Positions 42,424 to 49,531 of a stretch of 64,000 nucleotides of DNA are shown in pieces. The notes below the pieces were generated by a model that was given only the letters and a program-made list of their open reading frames with translations, did not search any database and was not told the DNA's origin. Source of the DNA: Cytophagaceae bacterium (GTDB lineage: Bacteria; Bacteroidota; Bacteroidia; Cytophagales; Cytophagaceae); assembly GCA_025454925.1 (NCBI GenBank), contig JALONM010000003.1:62001-126000 (forward strand), in the 5' to 3' direction. The position numbers and the translations under genes were made by a program. Every line of letters begins with the position of its first letter. Position 1 is the first letter of the stretch.

Positions 42424-44175
42424 ATGCGAATACTAATTCTAATTCTTCTATCTCCGGTTGTTCTCTGGTCTCAGGAATGGAAGCTACAATGGAGCGACGA
42501 GTTTAACGGAACAGAATTAAATCTTCAGCACTGGAATTATGAAATAGGAAATGGAGAGGGCGGCTGGGGTACCGGGCAAATTGATTATTGTACCGACCGA
42601 CCCGAAAATGTTCGGGTTCATAAAGGATTCCTCAAATTAGGAATCAATAAAGAAGATATCAGTGGTTTTCACTACACAGCTGGTCGCATTAATACCAGAA
42701 ACAAGATTACGGCAAAATATGGACGTATTGAAGCTCGAATTAAAATTCCTGCAGGAAGAGGGATAGGCGCCGCCTTTTGGATGTTACCCCAAGATGAAAA
42801 ATTTGGTTGGTGGCCTCGCAGCGGCGAAATTGATATTCTTGAAATCAACGGACATGAAATCCACCGTAATTATGGAACTGTGCATTATATGCTTTCCGGC
42901 CAGCGCAAATACACCGGACATGATATTATAGTACCTAATGATCTTAGTAAAGAATTTCATGTGTACGCCATTGAATGGGATGAAAAAATAATCAAATGGT
43001 TTCTTGACGATTCTTTGTACCATACATTTCCTATAGCTGAACCAATTGATGAAAGAACTCCTTTTAATGAGCGCTTTTATTTTATCTTAAGTACAGGGGT
43101 TGGCAGTGATTTCTCTGGTAAAATAATTGAAGACAAACTTCTGCCCCAAACCATGGAGGTTGATTATTTGCGGGTATATAAAAAAGTAGTACATCCTGAA
43201 ATCCAGATGGCTATTGGCTCTGAAGATGGAAAAAGCCTGGAATTACATTTTAATGAACAAATAAAACCCACCGCCGATTTTTCTAAAATAAAATTTATTG
43301 GACAAGAAAATGCGGTTGTTTCGGTACAAAATAAATACAGGGAAAATAATGTATTGGTGCTTCAATTGGCCAAGGTATTAAATTCCAAAGACTTCATGGT
43401 AGCGTTGGGTGCAGGCGCTGTCACTACCCTCGACCAGATTCCAAACAAAGACCTCGCTGCGTTTACCGTCATTAACCTGGTGTCGGGATCAAATCCGCAT
43501 TGGCTGGGAGCCCTGACCATGTCCGACGCATATACCTTAGAAGTAAGCGGTAGTAAAAAATTCACCTCCGATCCCTCCATTTCAAAGATTGAGGTTTTAC
43601 AAAACGGCAAACGCGTTGGCTGCACCATTTCTGTAGATTCTTTGCGTCCTAGCAAACTTCTCATTAAAGCTGGAATCCCCTTTATGAAAGGCGACTCTCT
43701 TCAACTTTCTATTCCTGCCAATACCTGCAAGAGCAACGATGGCATATTCTATCCTTCCGCCATGGTAAGGGTAAATAATTCCCTTCCGTTTAAATCCATA
43801 CTGCCTGGACGTATTGAAGCTGAAAATTACCTAAGACAAAGCGGTGTACAAAAAGAAGAGTGCCATGATGTAAGTAAAGGACAAAATCTGGGGTATATCG
43901 ACGATAAAGACAATTTCGATTACCAGGTGTATGTGCAAGAGGACGGAGAGTATGAGATAAGTGTTCGTGCCGCTGTGATGAATTACAATGCCATCCTCGA
44001 ATTTAAAATAGCAGAGCAATCCATTCAAATACCTTTAGTACAAACCTTTGGTTGGCAAATCTGGAAAGATTCTCCAGGTGGAAAAATATCCTTAAAAAAA
44101 GGTGTCTATACCTTGCGCTGCAATTCCATCAACGGAGGTTTTAATCTCAATTACCTTCAGCTTACGAAATTATAA
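42424..44175 (+). CDS. Secreted GH16 beta-glucanase with CBM6-like module
   Basis: A 583-residue secreted enzyme. The signal peptide is short (cleavage near LWSQ, about residue 16). The GH16 catalytic domain (17-255) has GEIDILEING with the E-D-E catalytic triad and GAAFWMLPQD ahead of it, typical of laminarinases. A middle beta-sandwich of about 200 residues (SEDGKSLELHFNEQIKP onward) resembles Ig-like spacer domains. The last 130 residues (PGRIEAENYLRQSGVQ, ending GGFNLNYLQLTKL) match family 6 carbohydrate-binding modules. There is no T9SS sorting domain. It precedes a GH3 beta-glucosidase gene by 200 bases; together they would turn beta-1,3-glucan into glucose. Confidence 0.9.
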   Translation: MRILILILLSPVVLWSQEWKLQWSDEFNGTELNLQHWNYEIGNGEGGWGTGQIDYCTDRPENVRVHKGFLKLGINKEDISGFHYTAGRINTRNKITAKYGRIEARIKIPAGRGIGAAFWMLPQDEKFGWWPRSGEIDILEINGHEIHRNYGTVHYMLSGQRKYTGHDIIVPNDLSKEFHVYAIEWDEKIIKWFLDDSLYHTFPIAEPIDERTPFNERFYFILSTGVGSDFSGKIIEDKLLPQTMEVDYLRVYKKVVHPEIQMAIGSEDGKSLELHFNEQIKPTADFSKIKFIGQENAVVSVQNKYRENNVLVLQLAKVLNSKDFMVALGAGAVTTLDQIPNKDLAAFTVINLVSGSNPHWLGALTMSDAYTLEVSGSKKFTSDPSISKIEVLQNGKRVGCTISVDSLRPSKLLIKAGIPFMKGDSLQLSIPANTCKSNDGIFYPSAMVRVNNSLPFKSILPGRIEAENYLRQSGVQKEECHDVSKGQNLGYIDDKDNFDYQVYVQEDGEYEISVRAAVMNYNAILEFKIAEQSIQIPLVQTFGWQIWKDSPGGKISLKKGVYTLRCNSINGGFNLNYLQLTKL

Positions 44176-44377: not shown

Positions 44378-46612
44378 ATGATCAAAAAGTTAATAGTTGC
44401 TTCACTGCTCTTTCAATTCCTAGCAACATTTGCCCAGGATAATGAAAAACGTATAGATGAAATTCTCAAGCAAATGACGCTGGAGGAAAAGGTTGGACAA
44501 ATGACTCAGGTTACTCTGGATGTAATAAGTAAGGGACAACCTTTCGACGAGAAGAAAAAACAAGAAATTAATGAAGCCGGTTTGAAAGAGGCGATACACA
44601 CCTATAAAATAGGCTCCATCCTGAATACAGGAACGCATACCTTGACTCGTGATGAATGGTATACCATAATTGGGAAAATTCATCAGGAGAATAAGACTTC
44701 CCGGTTAAAAATTCCGGTGCTGTATGGTATCGACGCCATCCACGGTGCCAATTATACTGTGGGTGCTACGCTGTTTCCTCAGGAGCTCGCATTGGCCGCT
44801 ACCTGGCAACCTGCCTATGCCGAAAAAATGGGACAAATTACAGCCTATGAGGTACGTGCCTCCGCCATACCTTGGAATTTTTCTCCTGTACTGGACCTGG
44901 GCAGACAACCATTATGGTCGCGCTTTTTTGAGACCTTTGGCGAAGACCAATACTTAGCCACGCAAATGGGAAATGCAGCGGTGTTAGGCTACCAAGGGAC
45001 GAATATGGGGCATCCGGAGCGTGTAGCAGCATGCCTGAAACATTATGTAGGATACAGCAATAGCAAATCCGGAAAAGACCGCACTCCTATTCAAATGTCG
45101 GAGCGCGAACTTCGCGAATTATACTTGCAGACCTTTAAATCCGCCATTGAAAAAGGAGCCATGACGGTCATGATAAACTCTTCTGAAATCAATGGAACGC
45201 CGGTACATGCTTCGCACCGCATTCTTACACAAATCCTGAAAGATGAATTAAAGTTCAAAGGTTTTGCAGTTACAGACTGGGAAGACATTATTATGCTTCA
45301 TACCGTGCACAGAGTGGCCGCTACTGAAAAAGAAGCCGTAAAAATTGCCGTAAACGCAGGGGTAGACATGAGTATGGTACCTTTGAATTATAGCTTTTTC
45401 AAACACCTGGTAGAATTGGTAAACGAAGGGCAAGTTCCTATGTCGAGAATCGACGATGCCGTGCGCAGAATCTTGCGTGTAAAATTACAGTTAGGGCTTT
45501 TCACTAAAACACACGAGGAAAAATCTTACTACACTAAATTTGGATCTGCTGAATTCGCTAACGCCAGCTATCAGGCTGCATTAGAATGCGTAACCCTATG
45601 TAAAAATCAAAACAATATTTTACCTCTGAAAAAAGGCAAAAAAATATTGGTGACTGGAGTAGGTGGAAATACGCTAAACTGTTTGAATGGAGCCTGGACA
45701 CATACCTGGCAAGGAGTTGACTCTACCTACAATACCAAAGGAAAGAAGACTATTTTCCAGGCCATGCAGGAATTGGGAGGAAAAGAAAATGTGTTCTTCG
45801 TGCAAGGAACCTCCTTTGATAAAGATGTGAATATTGCCAAAGCTGTTGAAAAAGCTAAAGAAGTAGACTACATCGTATTGTGCCTAGGAGAAATTCCAGC
45901 AACTGAAAAAGTGGGTGATATCGAAGACCTCAGCTATCCTGCTGCACAACTCAACTTAGCCAAAGCGCTTGCGGCAGCCGGAAAACCTGTTATAACCATT
46001 TTGCTAAGCTCAAGACCACGTCTATTTACTGAAGTAGAACCCATGTTCAGCGCTGTGATCAATGCTTACTGGCCTGGAGACGAAGGAGGAAGAGCACTGG
46101 CAGCTACTCTGTATGGCGATAATAATCCATCTGGGAAACTTCCGTACACCTATCCTAAATACTCTGGCTCTTTGGTAACCTATGACCATAAACTTTCAGA
46201 AAAAAGAGACAAAGATTTTGGATTCAATGCGTTTAACCCTCTTTATGAATTTGGACATGGTTTAAGCTATACAAGTTTCGAATACACAGCAATGAGTGTT
46301 AGCAAAAACCTCCTTAAAGGAAATGAAAAAATACAGGTAAGTATACAAGTGAAAAATACCGGTGCGGTAGAAGGTAAAGAAGTTGTTCAACTTTATTACA
46401 GAGATCAATTTGCCAGCATCACTCCTTCTGTTAAAAAATTAGTTCGATTTGAAAAAATTAGCCTGAAGCCTGGAGAAACTAAAACCGTACGTTTTGAAAT
46501 CGAGGCCAAAGACCTGGCATTTGTCGGAGCGGATCTAAAATGGATCACCGAACCAGGTAAATTTGATCTGATGATCGGAAAATCAAGTATTGAAATTTCG
46601 TACGAAGAATAA
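44378..46612 (+). CDS. bglX: Family GH3 beta-glucosidase, exported
   Basis: A 744-residue enzyme with a signal peptide (cleavage near TFAQ, residue 19). The GH3 N-terminal TIM-barrel domain has PVLYGIDAIHGANYTVGATLFPQ and the nucleophile aspartate in GFAVTDWEDI. The alpha/beta sandwich follows (KKILVTGVGGN and the SYPAAQL region), and a fibronectin III-like C-terminal domain begins near YEFGHGLSYTSFEY. It cleaves oligo-beta-glucosides in the periplasm. It has the usual BglX length. Its position after the GH16 gene points to laminarin or mixed-linkage glucan as source. No SusC/SusD pair is nearby. Confidence 0.92.
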   Translation: MIKKLIVASLLFQFLATFAQDNEKRIDEILKQMTLEEKVGQMTQVTLDVISKGQPFDEKKKQEINEAGLKEAIHTYKIGSILNTGTHTLTRDEWYTIIGKIHQENKTSRLKIPVLYGIDAIHGANYTVGATLFPQELALAATWQPAYAEKMGQITAYEVRASAIPWNFSPVLDLGRQPLWSRFFETFGEDQYLATQMGNAAVLGYQGTNMGHPERVAACLKHYVGYSNSKSGKDRTPIQMSERELRELYLQTFKSAIEKGAMTVMINSSEINGTPVHASHRILTQILKDELKFKGFAVTDWEDIIMLHTVHRVAATEKEAVKIAVNAGVDMSMVPLNYSFFKHLVELVNEGQVPMSRIDDAVRRILRVKLQLGLFTKTHEEKSYYTKFGSAEFANASYQAALECVTLCKNQNNILPLKKGKKILVTGVGGNTLNCLNGAWTHTWQGVDSTYNTKGKKTIFQAMQELGGKENVFFVQGTSFDKDVNIAKAVEKAKEVDYIVLCLGEIPATEKVGDIEDLSYPAAQLNLAKALAAAGKPVITILLSSRPRLFTEVEPMFSAVINAYWPGDEGGRALAATLYGDNNPSGKLPYTYPKYSGSLVTYDHKLSEKRDKDFGFNAFNPLYEFGHGLSYTSFEYTAMSVSKNLLKGNEKIQVSIQVKNTGAVEGKEVVQLYYRDQFASITPSVKKLVRFEKISLKPGETKTVRFEIEAKDLAFVGADLKWITEPGKFDLMIGKSSIEISYEE

Positions 46613-46658: not shown

Positions 46659-48500
46659 ATGCGTCTACTTCTTCTACTATTTTGCTTTAACCTCGCCTTG
46701 GCTCAGGAATTGATTCAGCTCAAGCCTGATGTTCAATTTGTTGAAATCAAAGAAGGAAAATATAAGATTTGGGTTGACAGCAGCAATCAGGCTACCATTG
46801 ATCAGGTTAGAAAAAAAACGTTTGCAGAACTTCCTCTCTTCAACAAAAATCCTGAATATAGTTACTGGCTGCACTGCCGCATTCTTTCAGAAAAAAATCT
46901 TAACTGGGTCCTTGAAATCCTCGATTCCAGACAGCAAGAACTAGAAATTTATGTGATTGACTCCACGAATGTTTTTGTTGAAAAGCTTGGACAACGAATT
47001 CCATTTAAGCAGAGGAGTTATGGTCACAAAAATTTCATTATTGACTTACCTCACCAAGGTAACACGCAGGAAATTTATATCAAGTTCAAATCACCCTTTG
47101 TAATTTCCATGCTGAGTAAAATCAGACGCCATCATGAATTTACCTCGTACGCGCTTAATGAATATTATTTTCTAGGTTTCTTTTACGGATTGCTTTGCAT
47201 CATAATTCTTTATAATTCCTTTCTCTTCTTATTTGTTAAAGAACGTATCTACTTATACTACGCTGGATTCGTGTTGGCTTGGGCCTTTCACTCACTCAGC
47301 GACGACGGGATCGGTAATCAATACCTTTGGACGGATTTTTATTGGGTTTCCGCCTTTGGACAGCTCATTTCAAGACCCTTATTCGTCTTCTTTCTAATCA
47401 TCTATTCTATTGAATTCTTATCCCTGAAAGAACGATATCCAGGAGCTACCAAGCTCATCTATTTAATTTACGCAGCCTACTTGGTAATAAGCAGCATGGA
47501 TTTCTTCTGGCTGCACATGCCTCATGTCATGAACACCATGTTTATCATTCCATTGCTGATTATTTTCTATTACGCAGTAAAAATATTCAAAGATGGATTC
47601 CGCCCCTCACGATTCTTTATCATAGGAAACTCTTTTGTATTGTTGGGTTTGGCACTTCGTATTTTAAAAGATACCGATGTCTTGGAACATATTTCAGCCT
47701 CCGTGAGCCTCATGGTATTCGGTATTTACAGCCAGAACATGGGAGTATTTTTGGAAATCCTGGTGATGACTATAGCCCTGGCCGACCGCTTGAGGTATTT
47801 AAAACGTAAAGACGAAGAAGCTCAAAATATTATCATTGAACAGCTCAAAGAAAACGAACAACTCAGTCAGAAAGTTAACAGAGAGCTCGAACAGAAAGTA
47901 AATGAGCGTACCGTTCAATTGCAGGAAGCGAAAAAAGTGGTAGAAGAAGCCAATGAAAAATTAAAAGCACAGGCCGACGAAATTCAACGCATGAATGCAT
48001 TGCTCGATCTCGACAATCATAAACTTAAGAAGAAAGTACAAGAAGTGACGGAAGCTCGTGTAAAATTCAAGGACGTCAGTTACGAAGAATTTTCCAACAT
48101 TTTCCCAAACGACCTTGCCTGCCAGCGATACCTGGAGGAAATAAAATGGAGTAAAGGCTATCACTGTAAAAAATGCAACAACAGTAAATTCAGCGAAGGG
48201 GTAAAAAAATTCTCCCGAAGATGCACCAAATGTGGATACAACGAATCCATTACTGCTTATACCTTGCTCCATAAATGTAAATTCCCCCTCCCGAAAGCGA
48301 TGTACATTCTGATGAAAGTATTTCGATACGGAGAAAAAAATAGCCTCAACGAAATGTCTGAACAATTACAATTGAGAAAAAGTACGGTTTGGGCCTTCAA
48401 GGAAAAAGTATTAGAGGCCATGAAAAGCCAGAAAAGTAAAAGTAATAACTTTGATGACAACCTTGCCCAGCTTATACTCAGCAGTAAAGTAGAAGACTAG
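46659..48500 (+). CDS. 7TMR-DISM receptor fused to IS1595-type transposase zinc-ribbon/helical domain
   Basis: 613 residues from ATG 46659; the frame upstream runs through the hairpin and lacks a signal sequence. Order: signal peptide (1-16), extracellular 7TMR-DISMED2-like beta domain (about 17-165, with YWLHCRI and LEILDSRQQELEIYVID), seven membrane helices (about 168-380, opening EYYFLGFFYGLLCIIILYN), a charged coiled coil (about 385-470, ELEQKVNERTVQLQEAKK). Then comes a C-terminal module matching the N-terminal part of IS1595/ISXO2 transposases: FPNDLACQRYLEEIKWSKG, a CxxC-15-CxxC zinc ribbon (C503, C506, C522, C525), ITAYTLLHKCKFPLPKAMYI, and a helix-turn-helix-like SEQLQLRKSTVWAFKEKV. 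The DDE catalytic domain is missing. A membrane-anchored sensor with a DNA-binding output is inferred. It follows the GH16-GH3 pair. Confidence 0.85.
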   Translation: MRLLLLLFCFNLALAQELIQLKPDVQFVEIKEGKYKIWVDSSNQATIDQVRKKTFAELPLFNKNPEYSYWLHCRILSEKNLNWVLEILDSRQQELEIYVIDSTNVFVEKLGQRIPFKQRSYGHKNFIIDLPHQGNTQEIYIKFKSPFVISMLSKIRRHHEFTSYALNEYYFLGFFYGLLCIIILYNSFLFLFVKERIYLYYAGFVLAWAFHSLSDDGIGNQYLWTDFYWVSAFGQLISRPLFVFFLIIYSIEFLSLKERYPGATKLIYLIYAAYLVISSMDFFWLHMPHVMNTMFIIPLLIIFYYAVKIFKDGFRPSRFFIIGNSFVLLGLALRILKDTDVLEHISASVSLMVFGIYSQNMGVFLEILVMTIALADRLRYLKRKDEEAQNIIIEQLKENEQLSQKVNRELEQKVNERTVQLQEAKKVVEEANEKLKAQADEIQRMNALLDLDNHKLKKKVQEVTEARVKFKDVSYEEFSNIFPNDLACQRYLEEIKWSKGYHCKKCNNSKFSEGVKKFSRRCTKCGYNESITAYTLLHKCKFPLPKAMYILMKVFRYGEKNSLNEMSEQLQLRKSTVWAFKEKVLEAMKSQKSKSNNFDDNLAQLILSSKVED

Positions 48501-48506
48501 CGTCTT

Positions 48507-48539
48507 AAAGCCCAATCTTCGGAATTGGGCTTTTTTTTT
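48507..48539 (+). terminator. Intrinsic terminator after the DISM fusion gene
   Basis: AAAGCCCAAT pairs with ATTGGGCTTT around loop CTTCGGA, then nine T (48531-48539). The last T is also the first base of the next gene's -7 box. Confidence 0.85.
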
Positions 48540-48546
48540 ATCTTTG
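48539..48546 (+). promoter_or_regulatory. Promoter -7 box abutting terminator
   Basis: TATCTTTG, an exact consensus, begins at the final T of the terminator tract and ends four bases before the ATG at 48551. The -33 position falls inside the terminator hairpin and shows no TTTG. Confidence 0.55.
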
Positions 48547-48550
48547 CAGC

Positions 48551-49531
48551 ATGAAACAGGATGTTTACTTACCCTTTGAGCAATTAGTATTTCCCTCGAC
48601 CGCATGTTTCTTAACGGGGAAACCCTTAGGGGAATCGGATTCTATGTATTCTGTTTTTCCCGAATGGTTGAGAAAAAGGTATGAACTGGATGGAAAAACT
48701 TTTTCTATGTTGCTCGATGGGACACGCGTAAAGTACGAAGACTTTCTGCTTCCTTGTTCCGACGAGGTATTAAATCGCCTGATAGCTCTTGACGAGGAAA
48801 TGGAGCGTGCCTTTTCAAAAGGCTACGAAGCAGTGGCTGCATTACCACGCACTACCTTGTTCTATTGGATGGCTAAAACGGTTTATGGAATTTTATTTCA
48901 TGATTTTCAACTCGCCATTCAGCATCAATCCAAACGCCAGGATAGATTTACACTTTCTAATTATTTAAAGCGTAGATTTTCAACGTTACATGGGATGATG
49001 CAAGGTATGCTTGGCATGGTGGATATCGCAAACATCCCTTTCTCCATGGCAGTCTTTAAAGTCCGATACTCCAAAGATGTTTTTAATTACCGCGACGAAA
49101 CCAATAATCTTAATTGCTCTCTCAGCATGAACGACTTTGGAATTGTAGCTTGCTTACAAGACCATGGCATCAATGAGTCAATGCAGAAAGTGCTTATCGA
49201 AAAAATTGGTTCCACGACCTTGCATCCTGCTCAATTCGAAGAAATTTGCAGCCGCTTTATTTACTCCAACTATTTGCTTCGCTCCTATCCTACCTACGAA
49301 TATGTCGAGCAAAATAAAAAAGTAGTGCTGGAACTTAGCGAAGCCAACTGGCCCCCAGGTTTCCAACCCTGGAACGATGAAATGTTTGCACAGGTGTTAG
49401 CTACCTATTGGAAGCCTTGGGGAATTCCGATGTCGCAAATTCATCAGCCACCCAATCCTCCCATTAGTTTTTTGTATAAAGAAACATCCGAGGATTTAGT
49501 GGCATTTGAAGAGATCGCTCTTCCTTATTAA
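48551..49531 (+). CDS. Conserved-looking protein of unknown function
   Basis: A 326-residue protein without signal peptide or membrane helices. It begins MKQDVYLPFEQLVFPSTACFLTGKP, where a cysteine near residue 19 and another at residue 69 (LLPCSDE) might be part of a small metal site. It is rich in aromatic residues, with recognisable but unassigned phrases such as PRTTLFYWMAKTVYGILFHDFQ and WKPWGIPMSQIHQPPNPP. Codon use resembles its neighbours, so it is a real gene. I cannot name a family. The message probably starts at or beside the ATG, given the -7 box ending at 48546. It follows the DISM fusion gene but has its own promoter. Confidence 0.75.
   Translation: MKQDVYLPFEQLVFPSTACFLTGKPLGESDSMYSVFPEWLRKRYELDGKTFSMLLDGTRVKYEDFLLPCSDEVLNRLIALDEEMERAFSKGYEAVAALPRTTLFYWMAKTVYGILFHDFQLAIQHQSKRQDRFTLSNYLKRRFSTLHGMMQGMLGMVDIANIPFSMAVFKVRYSKDVFNYRDETNNLNCSLSMNDFGIVACLQDHGINESMQKVLIEKIGSTTLHPAQFEEICSRFIYSNYLLRSYPTYEYVEQNKKVVLELSEANWPPGFQPWNDEMFAQVLATYWKPWGIPMSQIHQPPNPPISFLYKETSEDLVAFEEIALPY

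Follow-up and report, generated by a model that had tools for sequence, protein, structure and literature searches.

A 7TMR-DISM receptor ending in the zinc-ribbon and helix-turn-helix region of an IS1595 transposase, a putative one-component regulator of glycan use in Bacteroidota

The DNA analysed here, hereafter the window, is a stretch of 64,000 nucleotides from a Cytophagaceae bacterium (assembly GCA_025454925.1, contig JALONM010000003.1, positions 62,001 to 126,000). On its plus strand, a same-strand run is opened by a gene for a GH16 glycosidase with CBM6 (42424-44175) and continues with a GH3 beta-glucosidase gene (44378-46612), both assigned by Pfam, the latter lying immediately 5' of a single open frame that extends from the ATG at 46659 to the stop at 48500 and encodes 613 amino acids. 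The start at 46659 yields a signal peptide (MRLLLLLFCFNLALAQ; residues 1-16, 46659-46706, read from the sequence), followed by an extracellular 7TMR-DISMED2 sensory domain (PF07696, residues 35-147, 46761-47099, E 1.1e-16, 61.4 bits) with a weak sequence match to the solved RetS sensor domain, and by a seven-helix membrane domain (PF07695, 7TMR-DISM_7TM, residues 168-377, 47160-47789, E 2.9e-35, 122.5 bits against a curated cut-off of 29). A coiled-coil signalling helix with an ELEQKVNERT linker (47790-48065) then leads to an IS1595-type CxxC...CxxC zinc ribbon (residues 483-527, 48105-48239) and a helix-turn-helix (HTH) of three helices (48288-48428), whose recognition helix lies at about 48378-48428. 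Thus, the order of parts given in a preliminary description, from the signal peptide to the cysteine-containing tail, is found in one intact protein, and both Pfam matches place its receptor half in the 7TMR-DISM family as proposed there. A PDB sequence search with the whole protein returned sensible matches for the DISMED2 part only, all to RetS-type sensors, and the full-length AlphaFold model, built on two sequences, was set aside at a pLDDT of 47, a long helix over residues 342-468 being its low-confidence counterpart of the coiled coil. The fusion gene is followed on the same strand by a hairpin with a T run that resembles an intrinsic terminator by eye (48507-48541), and directly thereafter by a 326-aa gene (48551-49531) without any family match in Pfam or NCBIfam.

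The assignment of the tail is based on several searches. In the whole-protein Pfam search, the zinc ribbon matched PF12760 (Zn_ribbon_IS1595) with E 2e-4 and 21.9 bits, slightly below the cut-off of 25.4; in a whole-genome frame search the same ribbon reached 26.8 bits and those of seven host-genome paralogues 27-41 bits (top 40.6), all above the cut-off. Residues 540-594 aligned to positions 2-57 of the 215 in the NCBIfam model of IS1595 transposases (NF033547), and tblastn with the tail alone retrieved annotated IS1595 transposases at 27-29% identity over about 80-93% of the tail, including ISPma1 (E 1e-9, 93% of the tail) and ISEc70, to which the region is 26-29% identical. Pfam, NCBIfam and tblastn therefore agree with the earlier reading of the tail as the zinc-ribbon and helical region of this transposase family. 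The catalytic domain is missing, as had also been stated: no Pfam match to DDE_Tnp_IS1595 was found in the window protein, which terminates past the HTH with about 20 aa between tail and C-terminus, and the next gene does not belong to any matched family. In all fusions examined, 1-22 aa remain past the tail, whereas full-length transposases of the IS1595 family continue for roughly 175-185 aa.

AlphaFold modelling of the tail from three sequences (mean pLDDT 80, pTM 0.75) predicted two helices and a three-strand ribbon, followed by three helices (75-91, 94-101, 105-121) arranged as in an HTH, the region also covered by NF033547. A PDB fold search with this model gave no significant match, and the best-ranked hits, all weak, were largely to HTH domains and ribosomal zinc ribbons. 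The columns without variation among 75 divergent tails are those of the four cysteines, one lysine and one threonine. A strongly diverged 7TMR-DISM fusion (L184:2915-4318), in which Pfam does not detect the zinc ribbon, still contains the cysteines.

The host genome carries nine genes of this build, one of them divided over two contig ends (L018 and L019, which overlap). A search of other Bacteroidota for the same architecture, in which more than 100 homologues were examined, found the tail in all 19 genomes of the host family, mostly in frames of 600-680 aa and as often as 14 times in a single genome, and in 140 of the 391 genomes of the host order; in a sample of the phylum, distant matches were mostly plain transposases. 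With nine host copies and more than 100 homologues elsewhere, a frameshift or an assembly join between receptor and tail can be ruled out, as can, given also the lengths of the tail ends, a hidden DDE domain. In a tree of 98 tails, a branch supported at 98/91 has every IS1595 transposase on the same side, while the internal order is unsure because the alignment has just 126 columns. The tree fits a single ancient capture of the transposase tail, with spread and duplication of the fusion thereafter. Two stand-alone soluble zinc-ribbon proteins of about 150 aa that lack the catalytic domain were also seen (L177:1194-1649 and, in the host genome on C36, L039:1249-1707). Another genome, G162, contains ten copies of an IS1595-like protein; the four that were read (L168-L171, ORFs of about 311-339 aa) diverge from each other and appear to have lost the catalytic motifs (VDE to CEL, TDGW to TNGW or TTGW), and they are possibly a second domesticated family, in this case soluble.

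The genes around the fusions outside the host family point to polysaccharide utilization loci (PULs). Among 59 such loci, susC is the very next gene in 29, and in 48 a PUL marker of some kind occurs no more than five genes away. The control consisted of ten 7TMR-DISM genes without the tail, taken from fusion-carrying genomes. A same-strand susC was found within three genes downstream of 38/59 fusions and 0/10 controls (Fisher p 1e-4), and any PUL marker within five genes of 48/59 and 0/10, respectively (p 1e-6), where both p values are rough, since few markers were used and some of these came from the loci themselves, the genes were called mechanically and some of the species are closely related. 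No glycosidase reference was present within five genes in 27 of the 59 loci. Fusions also sit in annotated PULs on Persicobacter, Flammeovirga and Aureibacter plasmids. The order on Persicobacter psychrovividus pPP7 is susD, PKD, GH3, GH16, fusion, and on pPP2 it is susD, hypothetical, GH3, cellulase, GH2, fusion, GH16, susC, susD, GH3; the Aureibacter plasmid has GH43, GH97, bglX, sulfatase, fusion, and the Flammeovirga plasmid has fusion, ribokinase and sugar transporter, then susD and susC on the opposite strand. The GH3 and GH16 neighbours in the window are those of a Persicobacter plasmid fusion gene.

Within the host family, susC was never seen near the fusion genes. Many copies adjoin or diverge from GH9, GH3, GH16, GH8, GH20, GH64-GH5, GH81, GH95 or GH97 genes and others do not. 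None of the seven located host-genome paralogues has susC, susD or a glycosidase gene among the neighbours tested; genes for citrate synthase, aminotransferase and other products occur close to some of them, suggesting that sensing of glucan products is not needed in every member. With this caution, the link to glycan use behind the preliminary idea that the receptor might sense products of glucan breakdown holds for the family, through the neighbours and a DNA element described below. Two other arrangements were noted: a tandem pair of fusion genes beside lectin and GH81 genes (L162:6958-10783), and, in two genomes (L220, L223), a fusion gene and a 7TMR-DISM gene without the tail in divergent orientation, with a GH3 gene alongside, perhaps a receptor pair.

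The gaps after susC-linked fusions have AGCGTAT[CT]A in common. A single weight matrix across all susC gaps was dropped in favour of a nine-base pattern, since it mixed several specificities. Loci of three families carry, in the gap ahead of susC or GH2, a pair of direct sites (AAGCGTATCAA) at a spacing of 88-92 bp, with a promoter-like TAnnTTTG downstream of the pair. When 20 new loci were held out, [AG][ACG]CGTAT[CT]A occurred in the gap of all 11 loci that belong to two families, each time on the coding strand, and in none of the remaining nine (eight of family f71, one of f2); the 20 loci together contain 18 sites in 5.5 kb of gap versus 49 in 392 kb elsewhere. With one further position relaxed, two direct copies 88-92 bp apart were present in 15 of 19 loci and 76 bp apart in one more, and two other loci have a weaker second copy at about 88-92 bp. 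Downstream of the paired sites come a conserved TTTATCA and a sequence resembling the TAnnTTTG promoter of Bacteroidota. Given the position of the 90-bp pair upstream of this promoter-like sequence, an RNA element is an unlikely interpretation.

A sequence-only model of the element (195 bases) was run over the 249 genomes of one family and gave 14 matches at E<1e-5, nine of which lie at the loci used for building the model, and all of which come from the ten fusion-carrying genomes. Matches immediately upstream of susC in G254 and G872, which follow GH5 and GH2, are independent of the model and represent further copies within the same loci. A lone match in G784 (C5:99343-99481, E 7e-6) on another contig, away from a fusion gene, is a possible second regulon site. 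The element tracks the protein: 17 of 18 element-bearing loci encode one HTH subtype, KGKISSxKLS...IRQ[SG]TCW, and the element-free susCD-linked loci encode other subtypes. The one locus that departs from this, L222, carries a lone site that may be a chance occurrence, and subtype and element may co-vary through common descent. The model did not match the window (2.7 bits), which is in line with the differing HTH of the window protein. Nor was the element found in the host's own family, where an operator search in the GH9-, GH3- and GH16-divergent groups revealed no clear common site.

The same kind of tail is also found on other sensors. Three proteins of about 1000-1070 aa (L203:7206-10409, L204:7403-10393 and L205:3874-6906) combine Reg_prop propellers and Y_Y_Y with it, resembling hybrid two-component systems (HTCS) in which the zinc-ribbon/HTH tail replaces kinase, receiver and AraC parts, and one of them is encoded directly upstream of susC-susD. 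In Pedobacter namyangjuensis (L010:5911-6798), a short two-helix membrane anchor and a coiled coil precede the tail and there is no seven-helix domain.

We consider it very probable that the fusion is a membrane-bound one-component transcription factor, most plausibly an activator, for glycan use, and that the window copy likely acts on the GH16-GH3 run. Architecture, catalytic-domain loss, conservation, gene neighbourhood and the DNA element of related families are observations; that the tail contacts DNA, that the effect is activating and not repressing, and what the ligand and the window copy's target are, we infer. DISMED2 and the seven helices would detect an outside signal, probably a sugar or glycan fragment, as suggested by the neighbouring genes and by the jelly-roll-like nature of the DISMED2 domain. 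The signal would travel via the coiled coil, which in a dimeric receptor could position two DNA-binding heads, to the zinc-ribbon/HTH domain derived from an IS1595-family transposase. This domain is proposed to occupy the paired sites upstream of the promoter, an activator position, of adjoining susC/susD or glycosidase genes, which may thus be switched on without a phosphorelay.

The preliminary description had already regarded the tail as a domesticated transposase module used as output, either in a membrane-bound transcription factor or as a protein-binding part. Domestication as output remains the best fit, and of the two options the former is much better supported by the susC-susD and glycosidase neighbours and by the DNA element that tracks the HTH subtype. 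A tail that has lost DNA binding and acts in protein-protein interaction or as a membrane scaffold, regulating through a partner, would spare a transmembrane protein from having to contact DNA at the membrane, and zinc ribbons do bind proteins too; nevertheless, retention of the HTH and the zinc ligands in 75 tails, the match between HTH subtype and the cis element adjoining the gene, and the existence of a single-domain soluble version (L177) make this improbable. Still less credible is a role in repressing or limiting IS1595 elements by binding their ends, as in transposition immunity, with the glycan-gene location being secondary. The tail does descend from the end-binding part of a transposase, and IS copies with close tails occur in G413 and G396, but no standalone close relative of the tail was found in the host genome, the candidate sites are direct and not inverted repeats, and neighbours and element indicate susC and GH promoters.

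A tentative third reading, less likely than the proposed one yet far more plausible than the two above, divides the family, so that susC-linked fusions are PUL regulators and the window copy and many family paralogues govern other membrane or stress functions. It draws on the absence of susC near fusions in the host family, the 27 loci that lack a nearby glycosidase reference and the host paralogues with citrate synthase, aminotransferase and other genes in their vicinity. On the other hand, the window gene is directly preceded by GH16-GH3 on the same strand, and related copies lie next to or divergent from GH9, GH3, GH16, GH8, GH20, GH64, GH81 and GH95 genes. Returning to the glycan regulator, the sugar-polymer genes beside the fusions and the matching DNA element before them indicate what is probably an unrecognised class of one-protein polysaccharide switches. 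We think it likely that this class, as yet unnamed and widespread in Bacteroidota, uses one captured transposase DNA-binding module as portable output for sensors of two or more kinds, 7TMR-DISM and Reg_prop/Y_Y_Y among them, acting from the membrane via paired direct sites about 90 bp apart before susC.

The regulators of polysaccharide use described in Bacteroidota are mainly HTCS, ECF sigma/anti-sigma pairs, SusR and a few others. If the proposal is true, these would be joined by a further regulator class, whose members now bear no annotation beyond '7TM diverse intracellular signaling domain-containing protein', control of many PULs in environmental Bacteroidota would be accounted for, and a transposase fragment would have become a modular signalling output; a precise predicted operator is available for testing. 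Other outputs are well documented for 7TMR-DISM receptors. The open-access literature covered here yielded no report of an IS1595 tail serving as the output of a receptor, nor of 7TMR-DISM proteins belonging to PULs.

The fusion has DISMED2, the seven helices and the coiled-coil output linker in common with the 7TMR-DISM receptors RetS, LadS, SagS and RgsP, but receptors of this type usually have a histidine kinase, cyclase, GGDEF or similar output instead of a transposase-derived, predicted DNA-binding domain. Sensory proteins of Proteobacteria, among them some of the 7TMR-DISM type, are likewise reported to end in a DNA-binding domain, that of the ChiS family (PMC8092284); this domain, however, is an unrelated cryptic trihelical HTH without a zinc ribbon, from another phylum and with no PUL link reported in that paper. 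The zinc ribbon and HTH region are shared with IS1595/ISXO2-family transposases, from which the fusion differs in lacking the DDE domain, in being membrane-anchored and in not forming multicopy identical elements. As in the HTCS of Bacteroidota PULs, a single-polypeptide membrane sensor is encoded next to susC-susD, and the same kind of tail also occurs on an HTCS-type sensor. HTCS contain histidine kinase, receiver and AraC domains within one protein, none of which was found by Pfam in the fusion. Finally, sensing and DNA binding within one membrane protein, as proposed here, are also combined in ToxR/CadC-type regulators, which have no sequence relation to the fusion and carry their modules in the opposite order along the chain.
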